Shown here: positions 46,818 through 60,187 of the stretch, one piece after another
Numbering within the stretch: the first letter of the stretch is position 1
Layout of the letters: each line of letters begins with the position of its first letter
Assembly (NCBI RefSeq): GCF_017357525.1
Contig: NZ_CP036172.1
Coordinates: forward strand, 2,020,561 to 2,084,560
Length of the DNA: 64,000 nt
Direction of reading: 5' to 3'
From: Methanofollis aquaemaris
GTDB lineage: Archaea; Halobacteriota; Methanomicrobia; Methanomicrobiales; Methanofollaceae
Position numbers and translations under genes: made by a program
The notes under the pieces: model-generated
Told to the model about the DNA's origin: nothing
What the model saw: the letters and a program-made list of their open reading frames with translations, nothing else
The model's database searches: none

Positions 46818-47282
46818 TCATTCACGCACCGATACTTTCTCTGTCTTCTCGAATGGCACGTCGAACGAGGCGATGCCTGCATCGATGGTCATCGTGCCTT
46901 CCACTTTCACCTCAAGTTCTCCGGAGAGGAGCAGAACCGCGGCCGCAGAGAGCATGGCCGCATTGTCCATGGTGATCGGGACCGTGACTTCGGTCCGGTT
47001 GGATGCCGGGACGGTGATCGCTCCTTTGGTTCCTGAGCCGAGCAGCACCTCGGCTCTGTCTTTCGAGTAGGAGACGTCCATCTCCACCCTGCTGATCGTC
47101 ACCTCGATCGGGTTCGGGTTGTCCACGGCAAGGAAGACCACCAGGTCCATGCTCTCCAGGCTGAGGTCACTGACGGCTACGCCGGTGACGGTGACCTCCG
47201 GCGGCCCGACTGGCGGTTCTGAGGTGCATCCGGCGATGAAGACCGCGATCGCGAGAATGGCCAGGATTGGAGTGAGTTTCAT
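46818..47282 (-). CDS. Lipoprotein with LEA type 2 (WHy) domain
   Basis: The 154-residue product has a lipoprotein signal (LAIAVFIAGC, Cys 19) and a LEA14/WHy domain: LSLESMDLVVFLAVDNPNPIEVTISRVEMDVSY and a later VPITMDN strand. NPNP is the hallmark turn. Such domains occur in surface or stress-related archaeal proteins. Start 47282 begins the signal peptide. It is probably co-transcribed with the membrane protein downstream. Confidence 0.85.
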   Translation of the reverse strand: MKLTPILAILAIAVFIAGCTSEPPVGPPEVTVTGVAVSDLSLESMDLVVFLAVDNPNPIEVTISRVEMDVSYSKDRAEVLLGSGTKGAITVPASNRTEVTVPITMDNAAMLSAAAVLLLSGELEVKVEGTMTIDAGIASFDVPFEKTEKVSVRE

Positions 47283-47372
47283 AATCCTCCTCTGTCGGTG
47301 AAGGGGTGTCACGGTATTTATGGTGCTCGGCACCGCAGGGGGACCGATGGAAAAAAGAGGTGAAGGCCCTGC

Positions 47373-50300
47373 TCACATCAAGTAGAGGGCCAGATAGACC
47401 ACGAAGACCGGGACAAAGGCCACTGCCCAGTTCACTCTGTTCCACGTGTACACCGAACTCCCGTCCATGGGGGTGAAGGGCACGAGGGAGTAGACGGCCT
47501 CGATGAGGTTGACCGAGAGACCGGTGGTGCCCATGAGGGTCCAGATGCCGCCGAAGGGGATGAGGAGGGCGAATCCCACGGCGAAGATAAAGGAGACAAG
47601 CGGCCCTGCGATCATGGTGATGCCGGTCGCCCGCTTCTCGGCGGCCGGGACTGCGGTCATCAGGGGCTGGGCAAAGACATTGCCGAAGAACCAGGCGGTG
47701 AGGAAGGTGGTGACGATGCCGCTCGCGTTGAACCTGACCCTGGAGGGCATTGCAAAACGACGGGCGATGAGATGGTGCGTCGCCTCATGCACTGCGACCA
47801 CCACTCCGCAGACGAGGATGTACACCCCGATGACCCCGGGTACCAGGCCGATCCTTTCGGCAAGGACGAAGGCGAGGCCGTAGATGACCGCACCTGTGCT
47901 GAGGATGAGGATCTCGCGGTGGCGGTTTTTTCCTGTCGTATCCCCGAATTTGTTGGCGGCGATCTCTGCCTCTTTCTCCCCCAGTTTCTCGGCGATGTGT
48001 TCGCCGAAGAACTCGGCGAGGTTGCCGAGGAGATCCCTGAGGGTGTCGCCGATGCGCCTGAAGACCGAACCGGTCGCACTGCCCGCTATACCGGTTGCAA
48101 CGAGTGCCCCCGCGACGACCCCGAGGACGACGGCGCCGAGGGGCTCGGTCCCTTCAGGCATCAGGGCCGCGGCCGGTACCGGTCCCTTCACACCAGCGAC
48201 CGCGCCCGAGGCCCGTGCGCCACCTTCCTGCACGGCCCTGGCCGCTCCGCTGAGGGTATTCATGATCGTCCGGGAGGGGCTTTCGGGAGGCTTTACGTCG
48301 TTTGATCCTTCAGGTTGTGCTTCTGAGAGAACTGATGCGCTTTCCCCGGATTTGACCTCTGCTTCTTCGGCGGCCCTTCCATCCGCCTCAGGGACGGCAG
48401 GCTGGGCCGGGGGGGTGTCCCGTTCCTCTGTACATGGTGCGCTCGCGTCGCTGCTTCCAGAATGCCAACTGTCTGATCCGCCGTCGTTCGAAGGCGTCGG
48501 TGTCGTTGGCGTGACTGTCGGCGGCGTAAGCGGGGCGAGTGCCCCCGCGGCGAAAGTTGAGAAACCGGGGGTCCATACCCTGAAGACGGTGTGAGTGACG
48601 TTCTCGGAGACGAAGGCGGCCGGAAGGACGGTGACATTCCCGGTATCGTCCCGCCTGAAGAGCCTGATGTTCTCGTTCCCATACGCCCCGACCCACTCCT
48701 TCGGGACGGTCAGGGTGATGAAGGCACCGTTCAGGGCGGAGAGGGTGTGATCGACGAGCATGGTGAGACAGATCTCATCGAGAGACCTGCCTTCAGCCAA
48801 TGCGGCTTCGGAGAATGCAGCGAGGTCGCTCCCGCTGCACCCGTCTGAGACGAGGAGGTCGAAGGAGGCGGCCTGGTCGTACCGGGAACCGTTGATCTCC
48901 ACCGCGATCGAGGCCGTCCCGCCTCCTGGGAGGATGATGCTCACCGGGACACCATTCATCAGCACATAATCGAGATCGCCGGTGACATTGCCGCCTGCCT
49001 CTGTGAGGGAGGAGAAGATGAAGCGTATCCGGGTGAATGAGGGGTTCGGCCCCTCCACGACCGTCGTGTTTCCGGAGACGTTCAGGGGGGCGGCAAGGGC
49101 CGTCCTGTTCAGGGTGACGGTCTGCCCCCCGCCGACAAGGACTCCGTTCAGAGAGAAGGGATAGGAATGCCCTGCCTGGAAGACCGCGATGTAATCTGGC
49201 TCTTCTGCCGTGTCCGCGGCATCCCGGTTCTGCACCGTCAGGTTCACGGCGTACCAGCCGTGTACGGCGTACTCGTGGGTCGGGTGCTGGTCTATCGAGA
49301 GCGCGGTGTCGTCGCCGAAGTCCCAGCGCCAGGTGTTGGGGAAGCCTGTGGAGGTGTCGTTGAACCGGACGGTTAAGGGTGCGACGCCTGCCGAGGTGTC
49401 CGCGGTGAATCCTGCTCTCGGCGGGAGGTTGACCGCATACCAGAGGGTGCCTGCGGTGGTGTTCGTGTCCACGGTCCCGTAGCAGGTATGTGCGATATCG
49501 CTCCTGTCGAGGGCCAGGGCGGCGGCGGTGATGAAGGTGTCCGGGGCCGACGCCTCCAGGGTCGTCTGCGACCAGTGCGGTCCTTCGTACCAGAGATGGA
49601 CCAACCCTTCGGGCGCGACATAGCAGATGTGGGGGTTGCCCGCACTGTCGAGGGCGAGTGAGACGGTATCATAGTCGACCGTACCGAGGAAGGTGATCTT
49701 CCAGTCGGTTCCGTCGAAATGGGTATACTTTAGCATCGGGTTGATGGCCGCGGCGTTCGCCCCCTCCGGGCTGTTAACGGTGTAGGCGATGTGAGGATTG
49801 CCGTTCCGGTCTATCGCCAGGGAGGTATCGAAGACTTCCACCTTTTCGAGGGTTCTGTTCTCGAAGGAGGACGATCCCTGAGGCAGCCAGGCATGTACCA
49901 GTTCTTTGGTATCGCCGCTCTGGCGATAATAACTGAGGTGCGGCCGTCCGGCCGGGTCGAATGCAAGGGAGATGCCGTCGGCATCGGTCCTTTCTTTCGT
50001 CTCCACCGCGACCGAATTCCAGGACGCCCCGTCGTGGCGGGCATATATGACGGCTGTCCCCATATTATCGGGAAGTTCGGTCGTGTATGCGATACAGGGA
50101 GATCCGGTGCCGTCCACGGCGCAGGCACTCTCTCTGGTCGAGAACCTATAGACGTGATATTCTGTATCCGGCCGACCGAGCACGCCGTCGATGTCATAGT
50201 AGTAAAGGCCCTCCTCACTTCCGTCATAATAGACGGTGTGACTCACGCCGGCGAGGCCTTCGCCGTCCAGCGCAACGGAGATGCTGTCCCGTAGGTCTGT

Positions 50301-52001
50301 CCCGTTCGCGAGGCTCCGCGTCTCCCAGGTCGTCCGGTTCAGGACGGCGTACATCACCTCGACGAGGGTCGGGGAGGAGGACGCCTTCTGGAAGGAGAGA
50401 TGGGGTCGCCCCTGCCTGTCCACCGCAAGAGAGCACGGACTGCCCGTCCATCTCTCGCCGGTTGAGACGTCGTCGAATGTCCAGTTCACAAGAGGCTCCA
50501 CCGCGATGACGGTGATGAGATCTGTTTTTTTTGCCGTCCCTGCCTGTCCGTCTCCGTCCCTCACGGTCAGGCCGACCGTGTAGGTGCCGGGGGTTTTATA
50601 GGTGTGATCGATGTTCCTGCCGGTTCCCTTCGACCCGTCCCCGAAGTCCCATTCCCACTGAACCAGGGGAGCGGTGTCCGGCGGGGTGAATGAATGGTCG
50701 GAGAACTGTACGGTGAGGGGAGCGGGGCCTGCTGGCGGTGCGGCAGAGAAGTCGGCGCTGATCCCCATCAAAGGCACCGCATACTTAAGGGCGGTGTTTG
50801 TCTCGTCATAGAAGACGATCCCGGGGTTTCCGTCGCTGTCCACTGCGAGGGCGGGCAACCCGAACCCCTCGACGGTTGCGACGGTGACCGTCTGCCACAT
50901 GTCCCCGTCGTACCGGGCGTACTGCAGGTTCTTCTCCTCCCCTCCACCGACCATATAACAGATCTGGGGCCTGCCCTCCCCGTCGAGGACGAGGGGGGTG
51001 GCGAACCCGATCCTGTCCGCGTCGATGACGTTCTTCTGCCACTGCCCTGCCTCGAGCCAGGCATGGTACAGCGTCGCGGTCTCGCCTTCGAAGCCCACAT
51101 AACTGATCATGGGCCTGTCCTGAATGTCGAAGAGGAAGGAGGAATCATAGGGAAGAAAACCCGAGGCGACGACTGAGGTCTGCCATTGCCCTTCTTCAAA
51201 CCGGGCATAGGTCAGTTGGTCCTCTCCGGTCCCGGGTTCGGTTGCCATGAAGCAGATCCCCGGCCTGTCGTGGCTGTCGAAGAGGAGAGTGGCGTCCTGG
51301 ACCGGGCCTATGGCGACCCGCGCCGTTTCCCATTCTTCCTCACCGACCCTGGCATAGCAGAGGGCGTTTCCTGCATTGTGGTAGCAGATCCCCGGCTTCC
51401 CCTGGCTGTCGGTCGCTACCGAGAGGGGTGTCCCTCCGGCTGGATCGGCGGCCTCCGTCTTCCAGGTCGTGCCGTTCCTGAAGGTGCAGAGGAGAGGACC
51501 TCCCATGGCGGTGTACGTGATGCAGGGATCACCGTCGGGACCGAGGGTCAGGACCAGGTTCTCAGGCCGTGCTTCCTGGCCGGTCGCAATAGTCTTGGTG
51601 ACCCAGTTCTCCTCTCTGTGGATGTACCGGAGGGAGGTGTCTTCTGCGACCGAACAGACAAGGTGCGGCCTGCCCTGGCTGTCATGGACGATCTTCGACA
51701 TCCCGCGGATCTCGCCGCCCGGCGGGGGGACCGCCTCGGTATGCCAGGAAGATCCTTCCCGCCAGGTATGGTTCATCCCATCGTAGGAGGGAGTTCCGAT
51801 CTCATAGCAAAAGTGCGGATGGCCCTCATCGTCGACAGCAAAGGACCGAAGATAACAGATTGAATTATCCGGAAAATCTGCGGCTACGACGACGTTCCAG
51901 GAGGATGTCGCGGAGGCTGCCGGGATGAGAAGAAGAGCGATGAAAAAAACAGCGGTCATGAGGCCTCGCCTGCTGCTGGAGAGGGTAGATGGTGTCATCA
52001 T
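47373..52001 (-). CDS. Giant surface sensor-like protein fused to an M50 site-2 protease
   Basis: The 1542-residue product has a signal peptide (about 15-32). Repeats of the form DxxGxPxIxY follow at about 57-408 and 526-855 (beta-propeller-like). PKD domains lie at 415-498 (WDFGDG) and 862-940. A PGF-pre-PGF-like domain ends near TPGFSTFA (1144-1151). After a polar linker and helices the C-terminus is a site-2 protease: HEATH with His 1405, Glu 1406 and His 1409, then VPFTPMDG with Asp 1513. It would sense outside and cut membrane substrates. It starts 12 nt after marker 14; GGAGGA precedes the ATG. Confidence 0.85.
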   Translation of the reverse strand: MMTPSTLSSSRRGLMTAVFFIALLLIPAASATSSWNVVVAADFPDNSICYLRSFAVDDEGHPHFCYEIGTPSYDGMNHTWREGSSWHTEAVPPPGGEIRGMSKIVHDSQGRPHLVCSVAEDTSLRYIHREENWVTKTIATGQEARPENLVLTLGPDGDPCITYTAMGGPLLCTFRNGTTWKTEAADPAGGTPLSVATDSQGKPGICYHNAGNALCYARVGEEEWETARVAIGPVQDATLLFDSHDRPGICFMATEPGTGEDQLTYARFEEGQWQTSVVASGFLPYDSSFLFDIQDRPMISYVGFEGETATLYHAWLEAGQWQKNVIDADRIGFATPLVLDGEGRPQICYMVGGGEEKNLQYARYDGDMWQTVTVATVEGFGLPALAVDSDGNPGIVFYDETNTALKYAVPLMGISADFSAAPPAGPAPLTVQFSDHSFTPPDTAPLVQWEWDFGDGSKGTGRNIDHTYKTPGTYTVGLTVRDGDGQAGTAKKTDLITVIAVEPLVNWTFDDVSTGERWTGSPCSLAVDRQGRPHLSFQKASSSPTLVEVMYAVLNRTTWETRSLANGTDLRDSISVALDGEGLAGVSHTVYYDGSEEGLYYYDIDGVLGRPDTEYHVYRFSTRESACAVDGTGSPCIAYTTELPDNMGTAVIYARHDGASWNSVAVETKERTDADGISLAFDPAGRPHLSYYRQSGDTKELVHAWLPQGSSSFENRTLEKVEVFDTSLAIDRNGNPHIAYTVNSPEGANAAAINPMLKYTHFDGTDWKITFLGTVDYDTVSLALDSAGNPHICYVAPEGLVHLWYEGPHWSQTTLEASAPDTFITAAALALDRSDIAHTCYGTVDTNTTAGTLWYAVNLPPRAGFTADTSAGVAPLTVRFNDTSTGFPNTWRWDFGDDTALSIDQHPTHEYAVHGWYAVNLTVQNRDAADTAEEPDYIAVFQAGHSYPFSLNGVLVGGGQTVTLNRTALAAPLNVSGNTTVVEGPNPSFTRIRFIFSSLTEAGGNVTGDLDYVLMNGVPVSIILPGGGTASIAVEINGSRYDQAASFDLLVSDGCSGSDLAAFSEAALAEGRSLDEICLTMLVDHTLSALNGAFITLTVPKEWVGAYGNENIRLFRRDDTGNVTVLPAAFVSENVTHTVFRVWTPGFSTFAAGALAPLTPPTVTPTTPTPSNDGGSDSWHSGSSDASAPCTEERDTPPAQPAVPEADGRAAEEAEVKSGESASVLSEAQPEGSNDVKPPESPSRTIMNTLSGAARAVQEGGARASGAVAGVKGPVPAAALMPEGTEPLGAVVLGVVAGALVATGIAGSATGSVFRRIGDTLRDLLGNLAEFFGEHIAEKLGEKEAEIAANKFGDTTGKNRHREILILSTGAVIYGLAFVLAERIGLVPGVIGVYILVCGVVVAVHEATHHLIARRFAMPSRVRFNASGIVTTFLTAWFFGNVFAQPLMTAVPAAEKRATGITMIAGPLVSFIFAVGFALLIPFGGIWTLMGTTGLSVNLIEAVYSLVPFTPMDGSSVYTWNRVNWAVAFVPVFVVYLALYLM

Positions 52002-52013
52002 GGTTCCTCCAGG

Positions 52014-53510
52014 TCAGCGCTCCGCCTTCTTTCTCAGGCCGAGGATGCACGGCCCGCCGCGGCACCCGCCGATCGGGTTCTGGGGACGGCCGAGCGAGCA
52101 CATGCACCGGGCCATCAGGGAGGCGCCGCGGGCGAGGGCGTCCTCGACAAAGATAACGTGGTCGTAGGGGGTGGTGTAGAGACTCCGGTCCTTGATGTCC
52201 ATGAAGATGTACTCGGGTTTTCTCCCTGAGGTCGCCGCCCGCCCGGAGAAACCGATCGCCGTCTTCTCCGGGAGCAGCAGCCTCTCCTCGACCGCGACGT
52301 CGATGAAGCGCAGGGCCATGCGTGCACAGACGCGGTCGATGACCTCGGCCATCTTCTTTGCGCCGTGCTTCTCGTAGATGTCCGCCCCGATCGCTTTGAG
52401 TCTGGGGGCGTCGGAGAAGTTGGTCCCGCAGTCGCAACCGATGAGCGTGATCCCCTGTTCGGTCGCGCCCTTCGGGTCGACCGGGACGGTGCCGAAGTGC
52501 GTCGCCCCTTCGGGGACGACGCCGATGGTGAGCAGGTCGTGAACCTCGTCGGTGTACTCCTTGACGACCGAACGCTCTCGCAGGGTGAGGACCGTCGGCA
52601 CGAACTCGTCGCCGAGAAGGTCGAGTGCGGTGCCGTTGTCGTCGTCGACGTCTGGCGTACCCCGTGCAAGGGCATCCGGGACGGCACCTCCGAGGCCGAG
52701 GATCGTCCCGATCGTTCGGGCAAAGGGAGTTTTATGGTCATGGGGGACGTCGCCGGTGATGCACCCGTCCACCGTGGTGCCGAAGTCCATCGCGATGCAG
52801 GGGTTGCGGAAGTCGATGGGGGAGAGGAGGGCACCGTCCTTGATCCCGGCCATGGCGAGCACGCCCTCCATCTCGTTGGCCACCAGGCGGTCCTCGCCGG
52901 CGAGGTCAGAGGGGGGGATCACCCCGGCGACCGTCTCGCGGAGGGTGACTTTGTCCATCAGAGAGAAGGGCTGCAACTTCTTGGGGAGATGTTCTCTGGA
53001 CATCGGAGGCGTCATCTTTCTCGGATGGACACCCGCCTGGACGCAGCCGGTGGCGATCGCCCCGATAAACCCGGCGACCTCCTGGGGGGAGTGCCAGGTC
53101 GCCGCCATCCCGGTGCTTCGCACCACAAAGTCGAGGTCGTGCTCGATCGAGAGTCCGGCCTCTTCGTGGCACTGTTTGAGCACATCCCTGGCGATTTCGG
53201 CCACTCCTTCCATGGAGACCGGGTGACCGACAAGGGAGGTTGCGATCACCTCCTCGCCCTCCTTCGGGAGGCGGGCGTCGCGGGTGAACATCACCGTCTT
53301 GTTGATGATGTACGTGGCACCGGTCTCGAGATTGGTCCCGGTGAGCACGCACTTCGTAGTGGTGTTGCCCATCTCGACCGATGCAACGATGAAGTAGGGC
53401 TTTTCCCGATATTCAGGAATGGTTGTACCTGCCCCGTTGTTGCGGAAAGGCGGCGGACGGCTCTCCATGAAGTGGGGGAGCGGGTGTTTGAGAGAATCGA
53501 TGAAACCCAT
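52014..53510 (-). CDS. Methanogenesis marker protein 14
   Basis: The 498-residue product matches the methanogenesis marker 14 family. It contains the ASKHA-like segment SVEMGNTTTKCVLTGTNL (about 44-61), the middle MDFGTTVDGCITGD, and a Cys-rich C-terminus (MARCMCSLGRPQNPIGGCRGGPC). The family is found in methanogens and has been linked to cofactor or corrinoid-protein activation, but I know of no proven function. It is the upstream partner of the sensor/S2P gene, 12 nt apart. Confidence 0.85.
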   Translation of the reverse strand: MGFIDSLKHPLPHFMESRPPPFRNNGAGTTIPEYREKPYFIVASVEMGNTTTKCVLTGTNLETGATYIINKTVMFTRDARLPKEGEEVIATSLVGHPVSMEGVAEIARDVLKQCHEEAGLSIEHDLDFVVRSTGMAATWHSPQEVAGFIGAIATGCVQAGVHPRKMTPPMSREHLPKKLQPFSLMDKVTLRETVAGVIPPSDLAGEDRLVANEMEGVLAMAGIKDGALLSPIDFRNPCIAMDFGTTVDGCITGDVPHDHKTPFARTIGTILGLGGAVPDALARGTPDVDDDNGTALDLLGDEFVPTVLTLRERSVVKEYTDEVHDLLTIGVVPEGATHFGTVPVDPKGATEQGITLIGCDCGTNFSDAPRLKAIGADIYEKHGAKKMAEVIDRVCARMALRFIDVAVEERLLLPEKTAIGFSGRAATSGRKPEYIFMDIKDRSLYTTPYDHVIFVEDALARGASLMARCMCSLGRPQNPIGGCRGGPCILGLRKKAER

Positions 53511-53701
53511 GCATCAAAATCCATAGATTGCTGATTAATGGTATGCGATGCAACAATGCCCGGCATATTATAATTATTGAAATTGGTCGCAATTTGTGGT
53601 ATGATTTGATTTTTGAAATCTTTTGAGACTTTATTTTACGTCGATGCAAATCCCTGTAATTTATTTAGGATATTTTCCATTCATCTCTTTAGGAGTGGTG
53701 C

Positions 53702-55720
53702 ATGTCCGAAACCCTCGAACATCAGATCGCAGACGCCGAGATCACCGACAGGATCCTCGGGATCCTCAGGTTCAGAAAAAAGGGTGCCACAATATCGGAA
53801 ATATCCCGGGAAACACACCTGAACCGGAATTCGGTCGCGAAATATCTTGAGGTTCTCCTCGCGTCCGGGCAGGTGGAGATGAAACGGATCGGCAAGGCAA
53901 AGGCCTACTCTCTCTCCAGGCGGGTGCCGGTCTCCGTGTTGATCGACACCATATCCGAATATATCGTGATCCTGGATGAACACACCCGGATCCTCGAGAT
54001 CAACGAGCCGTACCTCTCCTTTTGTGGGAGAGGAAAAGACGAACTCGTGGGATGCCCCCTTTTCGCGGCTGCCCTTCCTGGACTCACCGATGATCTCGCT
54101 CCCCTGGTGAAAGAGGCGCTCGCCGGCGACCCCTTTGCAGAGGAGGTCTGCCTGGAGAGGGATGGTCTGGCCCGACATTTCAGAGTGAACTTTGTTCCCA
54201 CCGTGCTCGCCTCCGGGGAGGACGGGCTGATGATCCTGATGGCCGACACGACTGAGAAGACAAACGTGGAGGCGGGTCTCAGGGAATCGGAAAAATTTTA
54301 CCGGACCGTTTTCAACAACATCAATGCCGCCGTTTTTCTCCTGGATGTGGAAGAGGGCAGCAGACCCGGCAGTTTCATTGCGGCCAACGACCATGCCTGC
54401 GATTTCTTCGATTCCCCCCGCGATGAGTTGATCGGGACGGCCTTCGCGCGTTTCACGCTTCCCGAATGCCCCAGGGTCGGGGAAGATTCCGTTTTCCTGG
54501 CATTCGGGCAGGGGGAGTATGCGAACGCCGAAATGGCCCTGGCGAACCGGCGCGGGGAGCGGATGGTGGTGCGGATCAGGTCGCATTCTTTTCTCTACGA
54601 TGATTCGCCGGTGATTCTGTCCGTCGTCCGGGATATCACCGAGGAGCGTAAGAAAGAGGAACAGGATCGGAAATATGTCATTTCTCTCGAATACCTCACC
54701 GGTACCGCCGCGGAGTTCTCTTGTTTCCCGCCCGATCGGGATATCTATGACTATATCGCCGACGAGATCTGCGGGCTTGTCCCTGATGCCATCGTGGCCG
54801 TCAATGCTCCGCTGGAGGATGGGTCGGGGTGGGTGAACCGTGCCTTCCGCGGCTGGGAACGGCACCGCCAGAACTTTGACGCTGTAATGGGAGGAAGCCC
54901 GGAGGGAAGACCCGTCACCATGAACGGGAAGCAGATGCGGTTCTTTAAGTCGGGGATCTTCTTTCACCACAGGGTCACCGATGACGACATCTCCCTCGCC
55001 GACGAGGTCAAGCAGAACTGCATGATGCTCGCAGAACACCTCGGATACGGCGAGTACTACATTAAGGGCCTGGTGGCTGACAGCGTCCTCTATGGCATGG
55101 TCATCCTCAGTTTGCCGATAGGGAAGATGCTTGCGGACCAGATGACGGTGGAGGCCTTCATCGACCAGGCCGCCGCGGCCCTCCGGAGGCGACAGGCTGA
55201 ACGGAGACTTGAGGAAGCAAACGAAGAACTGCGCTTCGCCCTCTCAGACCATGAATCAGACCTCCGCGTCCTCCAGAAAGCGCTTGGGGACCAGAGATAT
55301 GAGCGTGAACAGACCGAAAAGGCCATTCGCGATCTCGCCGACCTTGCTCTCCGGTGCATCTCCCTCGGGAATATGGCAGTCGTTGGCCTTTCACGAGGTG
55401 GAGACGTGATCCACATCAGTCCGGCGATGTCCTCAGTAATCGGCTGCAGCGTAGAGGATGCAGTCGGAAGGCACTGGTACTCCTCGTTTGTCCCGGCGTC
55501 CGTGCGGGAGAAAGCGATGGAACTGCATCGTCTTCTCCTTGCCGGGGTGATCGGCACCGGCGAGACGGTCTGTCCCCTCCTGACCGGAGACGGGGAGGAG
55601 CGGACGATGGTCTGGGCCGTCAGGCGGGTTGCCGGGGGTCAGGACGACGGCCTCGCCGTCCTCTGGTTCGGAGAGGAACCGCCCGGAAAAAAGGTCATGG
55701 CGTTGTCTTTCCCGGGCTGA
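53702..55720 (+). CDS. wHTH-PAS-PAS-GAF-PAS sensory regulator, no kinase domain
   Basis: The 672-residue protein starts with a winged helix (about 10-75: ILGILRFRKKGATISEISRE, THLNRNSVAKYLEVLLASGQ). PAS domains follow at about 80-190 and 195-320, then a GAF-like domain at about 330-500, a coiled coil (RRRQAERRLEEANEELRFAL) and a last PAS at about 560-665. No H-box or ATPase is present. It is probably a cytosolic one-component regulator that senses redox or small ligands and binds DNA directly. It is divergent from marker 14, with a shared AT-rich gap of 191 bp. Confidence 0.82.
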   Translation: MSETLEHQIADAEITDRILGILRFRKKGATISEISRETHLNRNSVAKYLEVLLASGQVEMKRIGKAKAYSLSRRVPVSVLIDTISEYIVILDEHTRILEINEPYLSFCGRGKDELVGCPLFAAALPGLTDDLAPLVKEALAGDPFAEEVCLERDGLARHFRVNFVPTVLASGEDGLMILMADTTEKTNVEAGLRESEKFYRTVFNNINAAVFLLDVEEGSRPGSFIAANDHACDFFDSPRDELIGTAFARFTLPECPRVGEDSVFLAFGQGEYANAEMALANRRGERMVVRIRSHSFLYDDSPVILSVVRDITEERKKEEQDRKYVISLEYLTGTAAEFSCFPPDRDIYDYIADEICGLVPDAIVAVNAPLEDGSGWVNRAFRGWERHRQNFDAVMGGSPEGRPVTMNGKQMRFFKSGIFFHHRVTDDDISLADEVKQNCMMLAEHLGYGEYYIKGLVADSVLYGMVILSLPIGKMLADQMTVEAFIDQAAAALRRRQAERRLEEANEELRFALSDHESDLRVLQKALGDQRYEREQTEKAIRDLADLALRCISLGNMAVVGLSRGGDVIHISPAMSSVIGCSVEDAVGRHWYSSFVPASVREKAMELHRLLLAGVIGTGETVCPLLTGDGEERTMVWAVRRVAGGQDDGLAVLWFGEEPPGKKVMALSFPG

Positions 55721-56810
55721 GGCCGTTCCCGTCGTCCCTGATGTGGATATCGATCTGGCTGAACGGGATCTCGATCCCCTCCTCCCTGAAGCGCCGGTCG
55801 ATCTCGCGGTTGATGGTGCTTCTCGTCGTCCGCTCCATTCTGAAATCGTTCGTCCAGACCCTGAGCATGAAGTTGAGGCTTGAGGCCCCGAACTCGTCGA
55901 AGAAAACGACCGGTTTGGGGTCGGTGAGGATGTAGTCTTCCTCTGCCGCGGCCTCCTCGACGACCCTGTTCAGGATGCTCATCACCTGCTCGACGTCGCT
56001 CCCATAGGCCACCGGAACCTGGATGTTCACCACGATCTTCGGCTCGGGCCTGGCATAGTTGGTGATGACGCTCTGGGTGACGACAGTGTTCGGGATGGTA
56101 ATGATCAGATCGTCGATCGTCTTGATCTGGGTGCTTCTCGGTCCGACCCGTACCACATCCCCGAAATGATCCAGAATCCGCACCCGGTCGTTCACCCTGA
56201 GCGGCTGGTCGACCATGATCACGCTCCCTGCAAAGATGTTGCCGATGATCTCCTGGGCTGCGAGGGCGACGGCGATCCCGGCGACGCCTGCGCCCGCGAC
56301 GAGGGGGGTGATGTCCACGTTGAGGGTGCAGAGCACCATCAGGATTCCTATGAACCAGATGATGTAGTGCGCCGTTTTCTCGAGGGTGCCAAGGATGTGG
56401 TCGTCCAGGTCGGTGTCGGTCTTCTCTGCGATCTCTCTTCCATACTCGCGGAAGGCGAACTCCACGAAACTGGCGGCCGCCCATGTCCCGAGAAAGACGA
56501 GGAAGGCCGAAGCGGTGGTGGTGCCGACCACCCAGGCCTGCTCACCGGGCAGGGTGATCTCGTAGGTGAAGGCGTACCAGACGGCGGCGGCGAGCACAAA
56601 GACGATGAGCGGTTTGCCCAGTGAGATGAGGAAGAGGTCGTCGAGTTTTGATGCTGTCCTCTCAGCCCGTTGGATCCCGCGGTGATACAGCGCATAGATG
56701 ACCACCGAGGCGAGCGCTCCTCCGAGAATGACGACTATACCAAGAATAGAATGATAAATGTCCACCAGGTGGTGGTTCAGGCCCGCAGGAAAAATAGATA
56801 TGCCATGCAA
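55695..56810 (-). CDS. Mechanosensitive channel, MscS family
   Basis: The 371-residue product has N-terminal membrane helices and the MscS pore/beta region GAGVAGIAVALAAQEIIGNIFAGSVIMVDQPLRVNDRV (about 175-212), followed by the cytosolic vestibule with STQIKTIDDLIITIPNTVV. It releases solutes during osmotic downshock. Its 3' end overlaps that of the PAS regulator by 26 nt in a tail-to-tail arrangement. Confidence 0.93.
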   Translation of the reverse strand: MHGISIFPAGLNHHLVDIYHSILGIVVILGGALASVVIYALYHRGIQRAERTASKLDDLFLISLGKPLIVFVLAAAVWYAFTYEITLPGEQAWVVGTTTASAFLVFLGTWAAASFVEFAFREYGREIAEKTDTDLDDHILGTLEKTAHYIIWFIGILMVLCTLNVDITPLVAGAGVAGIAVALAAQEIIGNIFAGSVIMVDQPLRVNDRVRILDHFGDVVRVGPRSTQIKTIDDLIITIPNTVVTQSVITNYARPEPKIVVNIQVPVAYGSDVEQVMSILNRVVEEAAAEEDYILTDPKPVVFFDEFGASSLNFMLRVWTNDFRMERTTRSTINREIDRRFREEGIEIPFSQIDIHIRDDGNGLSPGKTTP

Positions 56811-56865
56811 CGATGCGTTGCGTCGGCGGCAGGCTTATCCGCTCTGCCGCCGTGAGCCTCCACCG

Positions 56866-57390
56866 ATGGAGGGGAGTGACGACGAGACCCGCCGGGTGCT
56901 CGCCTTTCTCGGTGCCGAGCGGAGGCTTGCCGGCCGTTTTTCTCTCCCGGCCGAAGCCTTCCTTCCGGTCTTTTTCTCGCTGCGCTTCGGGGGTGCGTGG
57001 AGTTATGCGACGGAAGGGTTCAGGGCGGTCTCGGTCGTGAAGAAGACGACCGTCTATGAGGACGAAGGGAGGGGGACCACCATCGAAGAGGTCTATCTCC
57101 TCGTCGACCCGGTGGTTCTCAGCGAGGAGGGGGCGGTCGCCAGGCTTGAGAAGTGCGGGGAAGAGCCCGAACGCCTCCTGGTCGTCCGCCCCTCTCGTGT
57201 GCGTCTCAAGTTCCGCCGGGGAGTGCGGGTGCGGGTCGATCCGGCCAGAAGAGAAATCTCGGCTGAGGAGGTGGCCGGGAACGTCCTCGTCTTCGAGGGT
57301 TCGGCGGCGTTCACTTTTGCCCATGAGATGGAGCACCTCGAAGAGCGCGAGGTCTCGGGGAGGAGGTTGTGGGAGTTCAGGTTTGTCTGA
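56866..57390 (+). CDS. Hypothetical protein
   Basis: The 174-residue product is soluble, rich in Arg, Glu and Val, with no signal peptide or membrane helix. Strand-like segments include VRLKFRRGVRVRVDPARREIS, and the end FAHEMEHLEEREVSGRRLWEFRFV has an HExxH-like order broken as HEMEH (about 152-156). I would not call it a protease on that alone. ATG 56866 has GCCTCCACCG upstream and no clear ribosome site. It overlaps the methyltransferase tail to tail by 14 nt. Confidence 0.6.
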   Translation: MEGSDDETRRVLAFLGAERRLAGRFSLPAEAFLPVFFSLRFGGAWSYATEGFRAVSVVKKTTVYEDEGRGTTIEEVYLLVDPVVLSEEGAVARLEKCGEEPERLLVVRPSRVRLKFRRGVRVRVDPARREISAEEVAGNVLVFEGSAAFTFAHEMEHLEEREVSGRRLWEFRFV

Positions 57391-60187
57391 AAAACCGCGC
57401 CCGCCCGGTCCGCTCCAGGACCATTTCGCAGAGGGCGAAGTAGACCTCCTCCTGCTCGTCGGGGGTCAGGCCGAAGGCTTCGAAGACCATGGCGTCCAGA
57501 TGTGTCCGGTCAGGGAGAGGCCTGGGGCGCTGTTCTCGTATCGGTCGGCCGGGATCGATCCCGCACTCTTCAAAGATCGAACCAAGTTCCCGGTCCTCAA
57601 GGAGCAATTCCCCGGAGAGCCCGTCGATCCCGGCGGGGATCAGCATTCGGTTGACCTCGTAGACCATCAGCGACCTGGCACCCTGGCCGAGGCTGCTGCG
57701 CGAGAGGGTCTCGGCCAGGAAGAGAGCCAGGGTGCTGTTGACAGCGTTCTGAACCGCCATCGGGGCGCTGACACAGTAGAAGCGGCAGTCGCAGAGGAGG
57801 TCGCGCTCTGAGACGAAACATCCGAGCCGTTCGTAGGTCTCCTTCATCCAGAAGAGGTTGCCGCCCCTCGCGTCGAGAGAATACCATTGCTTCTTCGTCT
57901 CAAAGGAGCGGAGGCGGTGGTATCCCCTGACCGCCCCGCCTCGCTCCCCCCCGCCCCGCACCCTGACCTGTTGTTCCTCGCCCATCTCGATATAGCGGCC
58001 GGCACCGGTGCCGGCAAGGGTGTCTCTACTCCTGGTGCAGACGAAGGCCCGATGCTGCAGGGCGGCCGGGTCGACCCTGGTCGTCAGGCACTCGCGCGGG
58101 CTCTTGATCACCGGGACGAGGAACTCGCCCTCGATTTTCCACTGTTCCCGCGTTGCCGTGTCGAGGTAGAAGAACTTGTTCGCCCCGGTGGTCATCCCGC
58201 GCCTGAACGGTGCCACCTCGCCGATCCTGACGAGCCGGTCCTGGCCCTTTCTGAGCACCGTGTAGAAGATCTCCGGCGCCCTGAGAAATTTCCCGGTCCA
58301 GGCACTCCCGGCGTACCGGCCGTCCCGCGTGTCCCGGCCCTCTTCAAGGAGGTCTGCCTGGAGGGCCGGGAAGGCCCGGCACCTCCCGACCTTTACGAGG
58401 TTTCCGGCCATCGTTGCGAGGTTCCCGCCCCGGGCCGCGGCCCCGTCCCTCTCGACCGCCGCCAGATCACCGGCGAGGTTCCGGTCGCCGGGGGGTGCGG
58501 CGACCCGCACGAACCTGGCCTGATGGTCGAGGCACCTGTCTGGTTCTTCTGTGGGGGGGCCGAGGAGGGTGATGACCGTGTTCACATCGGCGCAGGAGAA
58601 TGTACGTCCCGGGAAGTCATAGACCGCGATGATAGGGACGTTTCTGAGGAGAAATTCCTGCAGCCCGTTGCCGTAGGCGGTGTCGAGCCAGGTGGTCGGG
58701 GTGATGAAGCAGAGGACGCCGCCGGAACGCCTGAGCATCGCCAGTCCGCAGAGGAAGAAGTAGATGTAGAGGTCGGACCGGCGGTCCGGGCGCCCGAGGG
58801 CCGGGAAGACCGTCCCGGCCTTCTGGATCAGGGTGTCTTTGTAGACCTGCCGCTCGCGCTTCCCGACCCCTTCCTCGCCCGGAGGAGCGATCAACTCCTG
58901 CCTGACATAGGGTGGGTTGCCGATGACGATATCAAAGCAGCCTTCCCAGGGGGCGGCGAGGGTGTCCCCAACGCGGAGATTCTGCCAGGGACTGACCGAT
59001 CCCGCCCCCCCTCCGGCAAGGAGCCTGAGGAGGAGGCGCAGGCCCGCGGCCCTGACGGCGGCCGGCATCACGTCGGTCCCGTGAAGCCCCTCCCCGACGG
59101 CCCGCACCATCGTCCTGGTCCCGGACCCCCCGAGGGCCCGCGCCGTCGCCTCGAACACCCCCAGCATCCCGACGAGGAAGGAGCCCGACCCGCAGGCCGG
59201 GTCGATGACCGTGATCTCGTCGAGGGCGGCGAGTGCGCGGCCACGGTCCGGCAAACCTGCTGCAGACTGCGAAAAGACGAGGGCGTAGAGCGCCTCGGTC
59301 CCGACCTCAGGGAAGCGGGCACCCAGCGCCTCGACCAGGGCCCGGCGGCACATGAACCAGACCTCAGTTACGGGAGTATAGAAGACCCCGGTGAGATCGT
59401 GGTCGCCTGCCGGGGCGAGACTCTCGGTGAGGAGAGCAATCGCCTCGGGTCCGACTGCGGCCTCCTGCTCTTCGGGTGTCTCTTCGCGGCAGGTGAAACG
59501 GTATCGCTCTATGATCTCCAGAATATTCTTGCAGAAGCGGTCCGGGACATGGAGGAGGTCGGACGGCGGGCACCCCTGCAACGCCCCCGCGAGGGACGGG
59601 CCCGCCACCTCGGAGGCGAACCGGTCGGTGCCGTACCTCCCTTCGGCACGGTACCTCTCCCAGAGATCGCCCGGACCTTCACCTTCAGCACCAAGGATGG
59701 AGAGCACGACGAGGTCGACGAAGACGTCGAGGGTGCCCTCCCGGTCGCCGGTCGCCCGCGAGATCGACTCGAAGAGGGGGATGCACTCCTCCGTGAACCG
59801 GCGGGAGGTGGCCGCCTGTCCGTATGCTTCGCCGTCCCGCAGGGCGAGCAAGGCGCGGCGGTCGCTCTCCCGCACGTCTGCCGGGTCGAGGACGATCCTG
59901 GTGTGCCCCTCTCCCGCCGGGCAGAGCAGCACGCCCTTCTCGCCCACACTGACGATCACGAGGGGCCCGTCCGGCACCTCGTCGTCGTTCCCGGTCCAGA
60001 GGGCGAGCGGCACCTCCGTGGTCCCGGCCAGGAGGAAGACGCCGGCGGTCTCCAGAGGGAGGGGACGGGGGAGAGGCGAGATGCCGAGAGTGATGCAGAA
60101 GGCGGCGGCACCTTCCGGTGATCCGAGCGCGTTGGTCATCACATCGAGCCAGTCTGGCGGCCAGGCCCTCGGGTCGCCGGCGGACAT
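57377..60187 (-). CDS. Solitary Eco57I-like N6-adenine DNA methyltransferase
   Basis: The 936-residue protein has the adenine methylase core: GVFYTP (268-272), motif I DPACGSGSFLVG (329-340), a GTDVMPAAVRAAG segment and the catalytic NPPY (424-427) followed by YVRQ. The C-terminal third resembles a target-recognition region (GMTTGANKFFYL, MVYEVNRMLIP). The N-terminal 250 residues show no endonuclease motif I can point to. It could be a type IIG enzyme, an orphan methylase or a PglX-like protein, but no BREX or R-M partner gene adjoins it. A repeat copy lies just upstream. Confidence 0.8.
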   Translation of the reverse strand: MSAGDPRAWPPDWLDVMTNALGSPEGAAAFCITLGISPLPRPLPLETAGVFLLAGTTEVPLALWTGNDDEVPDGPLVIVSVGEKGVLLCPAGEGHTRIVLDPADVRESDRRALLALRDGEAYGQAATSRRFTEECIPLFESISRATGDREGTLDVFVDLVVLSILGAEGEGPGDLWERYRAEGRYGTDRFASEVAGPSLAGALQGCPPSDLLHVPDRFCKNILEIIERYRFTCREETPEEQEAAVGPEAIALLTESLAPAGDHDLTGVFYTPVTEVWFMCRRALVEALGARFPEVGTEALYALVFSQSAAGLPDRGRALAALDEITVIDPACGSGSFLVGMLGVFEATARALGGSGTRTMVRAVGEGLHGTDVMPAAVRAAGLRLLLRLLAGGGAGSVSPWQNLRVGDTLAAPWEGCFDIVIGNPPYVRQELIAPPGEEGVGKRERQVYKDTLIQKAGTVFPALGRPDRRSDLYIYFFLCGLAMLRRSGGVLCFITPTTWLDTAYGNGLQEFLLRNVPIIAVYDFPGRTFSCADVNTVITLLGPPTEEPDRCLDHQARFVRVAAPPGDRNLAGDLAAVERDGAAARGGNLATMAGNLVKVGRCRAFPALQADLLEEGRDTRDGRYAGSAWTGKFLRAPEIFYTVLRKGQDRLVRIGEVAPFRRGMTTGANKFFYLDTATREQWKIEGEFLVPVIKSPRECLTTRVDPAALQHRAFVCTRSRDTLAGTGAGRYIEMGEEQQVRVRGGGERGGAVRGYHRLRSFETKKQWYSLDARGGNLFWMKETYERLGCFVSERDLLCDCRFYCVSAPMAVQNAVNSTLALFLAETLSRSSLGQGARSLMVYEVNRMLIPAGIDGLSGELLLEDRELGSIFEECGIDPGRPIREQRPRPLPDRTHLDAMVFEAFGLTPDEQEEVYFALCEMVLERTGRARFFRQT

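Follow-up and report, generated by a model that had tools for sequence, protein, structure and literature searches.

The window analysed here, a 64,000-nucleotide stretch of the Methanofollis aquaemaris genome, holds a gene for a 1542-residue protein in which a long secreted array is followed by a polar linker, a transmembrane helix (TM1) and a membrane core resembling the site-2 proteases (S2P) of family M50 (Table 1). That this is one uninterrupted frame, as the original prediction had claimed, is borne out: the frame has no internal stop, GC3 lies at 0.69-0.83 across all 150-codon blocks, the codon-position GC pattern is constant from end to end, and a GGAGG ahead of the ATG makes a good ribosome site. 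The gene forms a four-gene island together with a copy of methanogenesis marker 14, a probable regulator of HTH-PAS type and an MscS-type mechanosensitive channel.

Table 1. Features of the fusion gene and its island, in positions of the window.
Feature	Position	Strand	Basis or remark
Four-gene island: fusion, marker-14 copy, HTH-PAS, MscS	47332-56834		left end uncertain by ~50 bp
Fusion gene	47373-52001	-	single open frame, 1542 residues
Signal peptide, ~residues 1-31	51909-52001	-	RR, hydrophobic core, AxA site
Beta-propeller 1, residues 33-408, DxxGxP repeats	50778-51905	-	model pLDDT ~85; Foldseek
PKD domain 1, residues 411-500	50502-50771	-	Pfam
Beta-propeller 2, residues 505-857	49431-50489	-	BNR_4 match; internal duplicate of propeller 1
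PKD domain 2, residues 858-943	49173-49430	-	Pfam and internal duplication
PGF-pre-PGF-like region, residues 960-1155	48537-49124	-	E 0.18, below cut-off
Polar linker, residues 1156-1275	48177-48536	-	read from the sequence
TM1, ~residues 1286-1308	48078-48146	-	hydropathy; family LP..IP motif just before
Amphipathic stretch, residues 1309-1361, between TM1 and M50 core	47919-48077	-	probably cytosolic (predicted membrane side)
M50/S2P-like membrane core, residues 1362-1542	47376-47918	-	Pfam, profile, fold and tree comparisons
HEATH zinc motif, residues 1405-1409	47775-47789	-	motif reading
MDG motif, residues 1512-1514, third ligand Asp1513	47460-47468	-	alignment with 3b4r
Second methanogenesis marker 14 copy (paralogue)	52014-53510	-	profile 520.7 bits
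HTH-PAS protein, probable regulator	53702-55720	+	divergent from marker-14 copy
MscS-type mechanosensitive channel	55695-56810	-	sequence match and MscS tree

The extracellular part had been described as two DxxGxP repeat regions with two PKD domains, and both were recovered. Pfam places PKD on two stretches (113.9 bits, cut-off 27) and BNR_4 above its cut-off (55.9 bits), and the two repeat sets are duplicates of one another, each duplicated along with its own PKD domain. Hydropathy of the signal peptide peaks at residues 13-31, its cleavage site being assigned by eye. Given an alignment of the two repeat regions alone, AlphaFold returned a confident propeller (mean pLDDT 79, ~85 within the propeller), and the nearest solved folds to the model of propeller 1 are lectin-like propellers (Foldseek E 2.5e-12). 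The matches also include an archaeal surface-layer protein (PDB 1l0q) which, like the fusion, is secreted and carries a propeller followed by PKD, although it has no protease domain and its propeller repeat differs. The PGF-pre-PGF-like domain keeps its suffix because the TIGR04213 profile gives only 11.8 bits on the fusion protein, against a cut-off of 28, and because the C-terminus is the M50 core, where the PGF-CTERM signal was not found; the related protein L042 matches PGF-pre-PGF more strongly (E 0.0026).

For the membrane part, hydropathy indicates one transmembrane helix before the core and several within it. HEATH and MDG lie where they had been reported. The former lies at the end of the hydrophobic segment 1386-1404, which sets the HExxH in a membrane helix as in M50 proteins, and the latter, within PMDG, precedes the last helix and supplies the Asp of a DG pair that the family profile aligns with the PMDG of 3b4r. 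Together with the GP motif, these predicted ligands sit in hydrophobic segments. The M50-like assignment stands on such motifs and on comparison with mjS2P (MJ0392, PDB 3b4r, family M50), the top match when a 25-sequence profile was compared with all solved structures (E 0.01; HExxH, AGP and PMDG in register), but the Pfam match of the window protein (Peptidase_M50, residues 1394-1481, E 1.6e-4) scores 21.5 bits, under the cut-off of 27.2. A member of the same branch, L054, passes that cut-off with 38.6 bits. Structure prediction, confident for the propeller, was weak to moderate for the C-terminal part (mean pLDDT 64, core mostly 72-90), and its best plausible fold match was again 3b4r_A (Foldseek probability 0.90, E 0.55). 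In mjS2P the three motifs occur within transmembrane helices in the same order as in the window core; it differs in its length of ~220 residues, in its lack of an ectodomain and in having the Asn of NLIP, preceding PMDG, where the window core has Ser. Haloarchaeal S2Ps have been described with CBS or PDZ domains, not with large secreted arrays (PMC9263693). The S2P-like core of the window protein keeps its predicted metal ligands, and proteolysis by it is plausible.

The original prediction had asked for a survey of the same fusion elsewhere, and many genomes proved to carry it. Within the order, 218 of 232 genomes hold an M50 match, mostly as a sole match to a standalone protein of ~200 residues. 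Such standalone proteins (L059, for example, with HELAH and LDG) belong to the same protein family as the window core but have no ectodomain, share 26% identity with the fusion and form a separate branch. The second branch comprises the fusions (E mostly <1e-17, open frames mostly of 300-2007 residues); it is patchily distributed and richest in Methanoregula, and among the 232 genomes no other species of the window's genus yielded it. A phylum-wide profile search added fusions in a second family (f14) and two outlying members in another (f10). In all, 57 related genes in other archaeal genomes share the transmembrane helix and core under differing ectodomains, among them NosD/beta-helix with PKD (2007 residues), Kelch with PKD (1178 residues), PEGA, paired PKD domains and a short domain matching S-layer proteins weakly. 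TM1 and the preceding LP..IP motif are retained in most members. A tree of 65 cores splits the fusions from the standalone proteins (support 98/94), with the exception of the two f10 members, which cluster with the latter, and groups the window protein with those of G191, G100, G121, G122 and G019 (99/97); in G191 the frame is interrupted upstream of the core. In one branch of fusions (TPCDG; L047, L048, L049, L123), a gene with a phosphatidylglycerol lysyltransferase C-terminal domain lies convergently 79-124 bp downstream of the fusion.

These genes also settle whether the fusion arose by two genes being joined in error during assembly or annotation, as the great length of the chain and an M50 score under cut-off might have suggested. 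The genome is a single contig with uniform coding signal, the same join is present in dozens of independent assemblies, including Methanocalculus taiwanensis P2F9704a, and the helix and core are shared by 57 genes under different ectodomains; for the fusion family, an artefact is already refuted.

Whether the core cuts is a different matter. Among 58 fusion-type members, the zinc motif reads HExxH in 18, HDxxH in 32 and neither in 8. The metal site is thus mostly kept, while full catalysis is by its sequence not a constant of the family, and proteolysis, plausible for the window protein, should not be generalised. A core that is non-proteolytic throughout the family, a pseudoprotease serving as membrane anchor or partner-binding scaffold that ties a surface protein to a channel or regulator, is doubtful as a complete account but a serious rival for most of the fusions. 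It would explain a core that is otherwise still conserved where the motif is altered or lost, and the strongest linkage to mechanosensitive channels falls in the HDxxH branch. It sits oddly with the window's branch, in which HExxH and the Asp are kept in all six members, as would be expected only under selection for metal binding or catalysis; moreover, Asp in place of Glu may leave some activity. The motif-less fusions recall, by analogy only, the iRhoms, members of a membrane-protease family which have lost their catalytic residues and kept the fold (PMC3149277), although rhomboids are serine proteases of an unrelated fold. In one clade of beta-helix fusions (L068, L069, L070, L071), HExxH has changed to PK/PR..Q and the zinc motif is wholly lost.

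The constancy of TM1 raises a second rival, namely self-cleavage at this helix by the core, which would shed the ectodomain and make the fusion a release device rather than a signal transducer. In nearly all members, a near-fixed distance of ~63-83 residues separates TM1 and LP..IP from the core, and the TM1 of the window protein is rich in Gly and Ala; S2P substrates often have transmembrane segments of this composition. Yet TM1 is kept equally in members without the zinc motif, and we consider self-cleavage improbable. The Gly content of TM1 was discarded as a sign of self-cleavage, for it tracks phylogeny and not the state of the motif, Methanocella-like HDxxH members being Gly-rich.

The genomic setting bears on the partners of the fusion. 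The island is one 9.5-kb insertion carrying exactly four genes. Four sister species (G090, G087, G094 and G085; L258, L259, L260 and L261) lack it at the orthologous site; there the left flank (to ~47331) continues at ~56835, separated by no more than an ordinary intergenic gap. DNA around the site is ~76-92% identical to the window in G090 and G087. The island is most economically read as gained once, in the lineage of the window. We dismissed a clean duplication of the target site at its ends, the ~4 bp shared there being unconvincing. We also excluded the downstream LEA_2 lipoprotein gene (46818-47333) as part of the system, since it is present in sister species without the island; it adjoins a 306-residue membrane frame without Pfam match, and DNA conservation in G090 and G087 extends over the two. 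On the other side, an adenine-specific DNA methyltransferase-like gene (57377-60187), weakly matched by PglX/BREX and Alw26, occurs in G087 but is missing there in G090; it is a second strain-variable insertion beside the island.

The marker-14 copy, 12 nt upstream of the fusion gene, had been taken as a hint of a methanogen-specific pathway. The spacing is as reported, but the argument needs revision because the neighbour is a divergent paralogue within a lineage-specific island and not the main copy of the genome, which lies ~660 kb away (genome positions 2730442-2731920). In a marker-14 tree, the latter groups with its genus, and the island copy with the paralogues of G101 (73% identity) and G100 (68%). 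Across the family loci examined, no conserved placement beside the core marker-14 gene was found, and such linkage is rejected; a marker-14 gene adjoins the fusion at one other locus only (L043), and there too it is a paralogue. In G100, where contigs end between paralogue and fusion, the two may be adjacent.

That the fusion acts in a methanogen-specific process by way of marker 14 or marker 8, for instance in maturing or regulating an energy-metabolism complex, is accordingly a distinctly improbable reading, although a link with the paralogue itself is conceivable. Full second copies occur in ~10 of 232 genomes and in four of the six whose fusions belong to the window's branch (P 2.6e-5, uncorrected for kinship), and these, with the 12-nt spacing, the L043 locus and marker 8 farther upstream in several Methanoregula and PKD-branch loci, speak for it. 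Most members have no marker-14 neighbour, and the closest paralogue, in G101, adjoins a CO dehydrogenase-like gene, with no fusion there. On a reading of the translations, that paralogue (L209, 8834-12560) is divergent both from the CO dehydrogenase-like gene and from a CooC-like ATPase. Paralogues of G126, G122 and G019 (L207, L208, L043) make up another deep clade, 46-49% identical to the window copy.

An association absent from the original prediction and brought out here is that with mechanosensitive channels, which were found beside fusions from three of the order's families. Of the 20 PKD-branch loci with enough sequence, 18 have MscS and/or MscL on the same strand, no more than 2 kb upstream of the fusion, against ~0.04 expected from the 1-6 MscS and 0-2 MscL held by the genomes checked; as these loci share descent, the count reflects persistence of one gene order and not 18 independent events. 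The linkage holds for two of six members of the window's own branch, with MscS adjoining the fusion in G100 and lying within the island of the window, and in Methanocella-like members no channel neighbour was found within 5-6 kb. Fusion-linked MscS form a supported clade of their own, albeit with limited sampling of unlinked MscS. The window MscS pairs with that beside the G100 fusion; an equally close MscS is present in G101, beside a masked stretch that may or may not carry a fusion. PAS-type proteins are also frequent neighbours, varying from locus to locus.

The explanation we favour, tentatively and at a probability of about 0.45, is that the fusion is an envelope sensor in one chain, whose output is S2P-like and which works together with mechanosensitive channels. 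It is supported by the reuse of one helix and core under swapped ectodomains, by a fusion branch separate from the standalone M50 proteins that these genomes also encode, by the metal ligands and GP motif with mjS2P as closest solved relative, and by the four-gene island lacking at the orthologous site in four relatives. The tie to channels draws on the PKD-branch linkage, the distinct MscS clade and the MscS of G100 and of the island; it is weakened by the confinement of strong linkage to one branch of shared descent and by the Methanocella-like members.

A sensory role would fit a variable ectodomain on a constant membrane part. The propeller/PKD array may lie within or upon the surface layer, sensing a ligand or strain, and a change in it would be passed through TM1 to the core. 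In the window copy, with its HExxH, the core may then cut a transmembrane partner; S2Ps normally act after another protease has trimmed the outer part of such a partner. HDxxH and motif-less copies may bind or hold the partner instead of cutting it, and the partner or downstream effect may concern the mechanosensitive channel and the envelope stress answered by that channel. Proteolytic signalling by the fusion protein is something we infer from its sequence. The proposal that a single chain converts an external signal into cleavage thus retains its intact chain, extracellular array and S2P-like end, but catalysis is doubtful family-wide, and with most relatives HDxxH or motif-less, a protease output is not the conserved function.

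A bolder version, which we think unlikely, is an archaeal mechanotransduction module in which a surface-layer-coupled receptor with an S2P-like core would control MscS/MscL, cutting in some lineages and acting as a pseudoprotease elsewhere, and would travel between species as a small cassette. A literature search, leaving aside most subscription papers, returned no description of the fusion or of S2P-MscS linkage, and the fusion family of these methane-making archaea is apparently undescribed. If the sensor reading is true, a family of S2P-like proteins with the sensor in the chain, repeated motif loss and channel neighbours would represent an undescribed archaeal route of signalling from surface to membrane.
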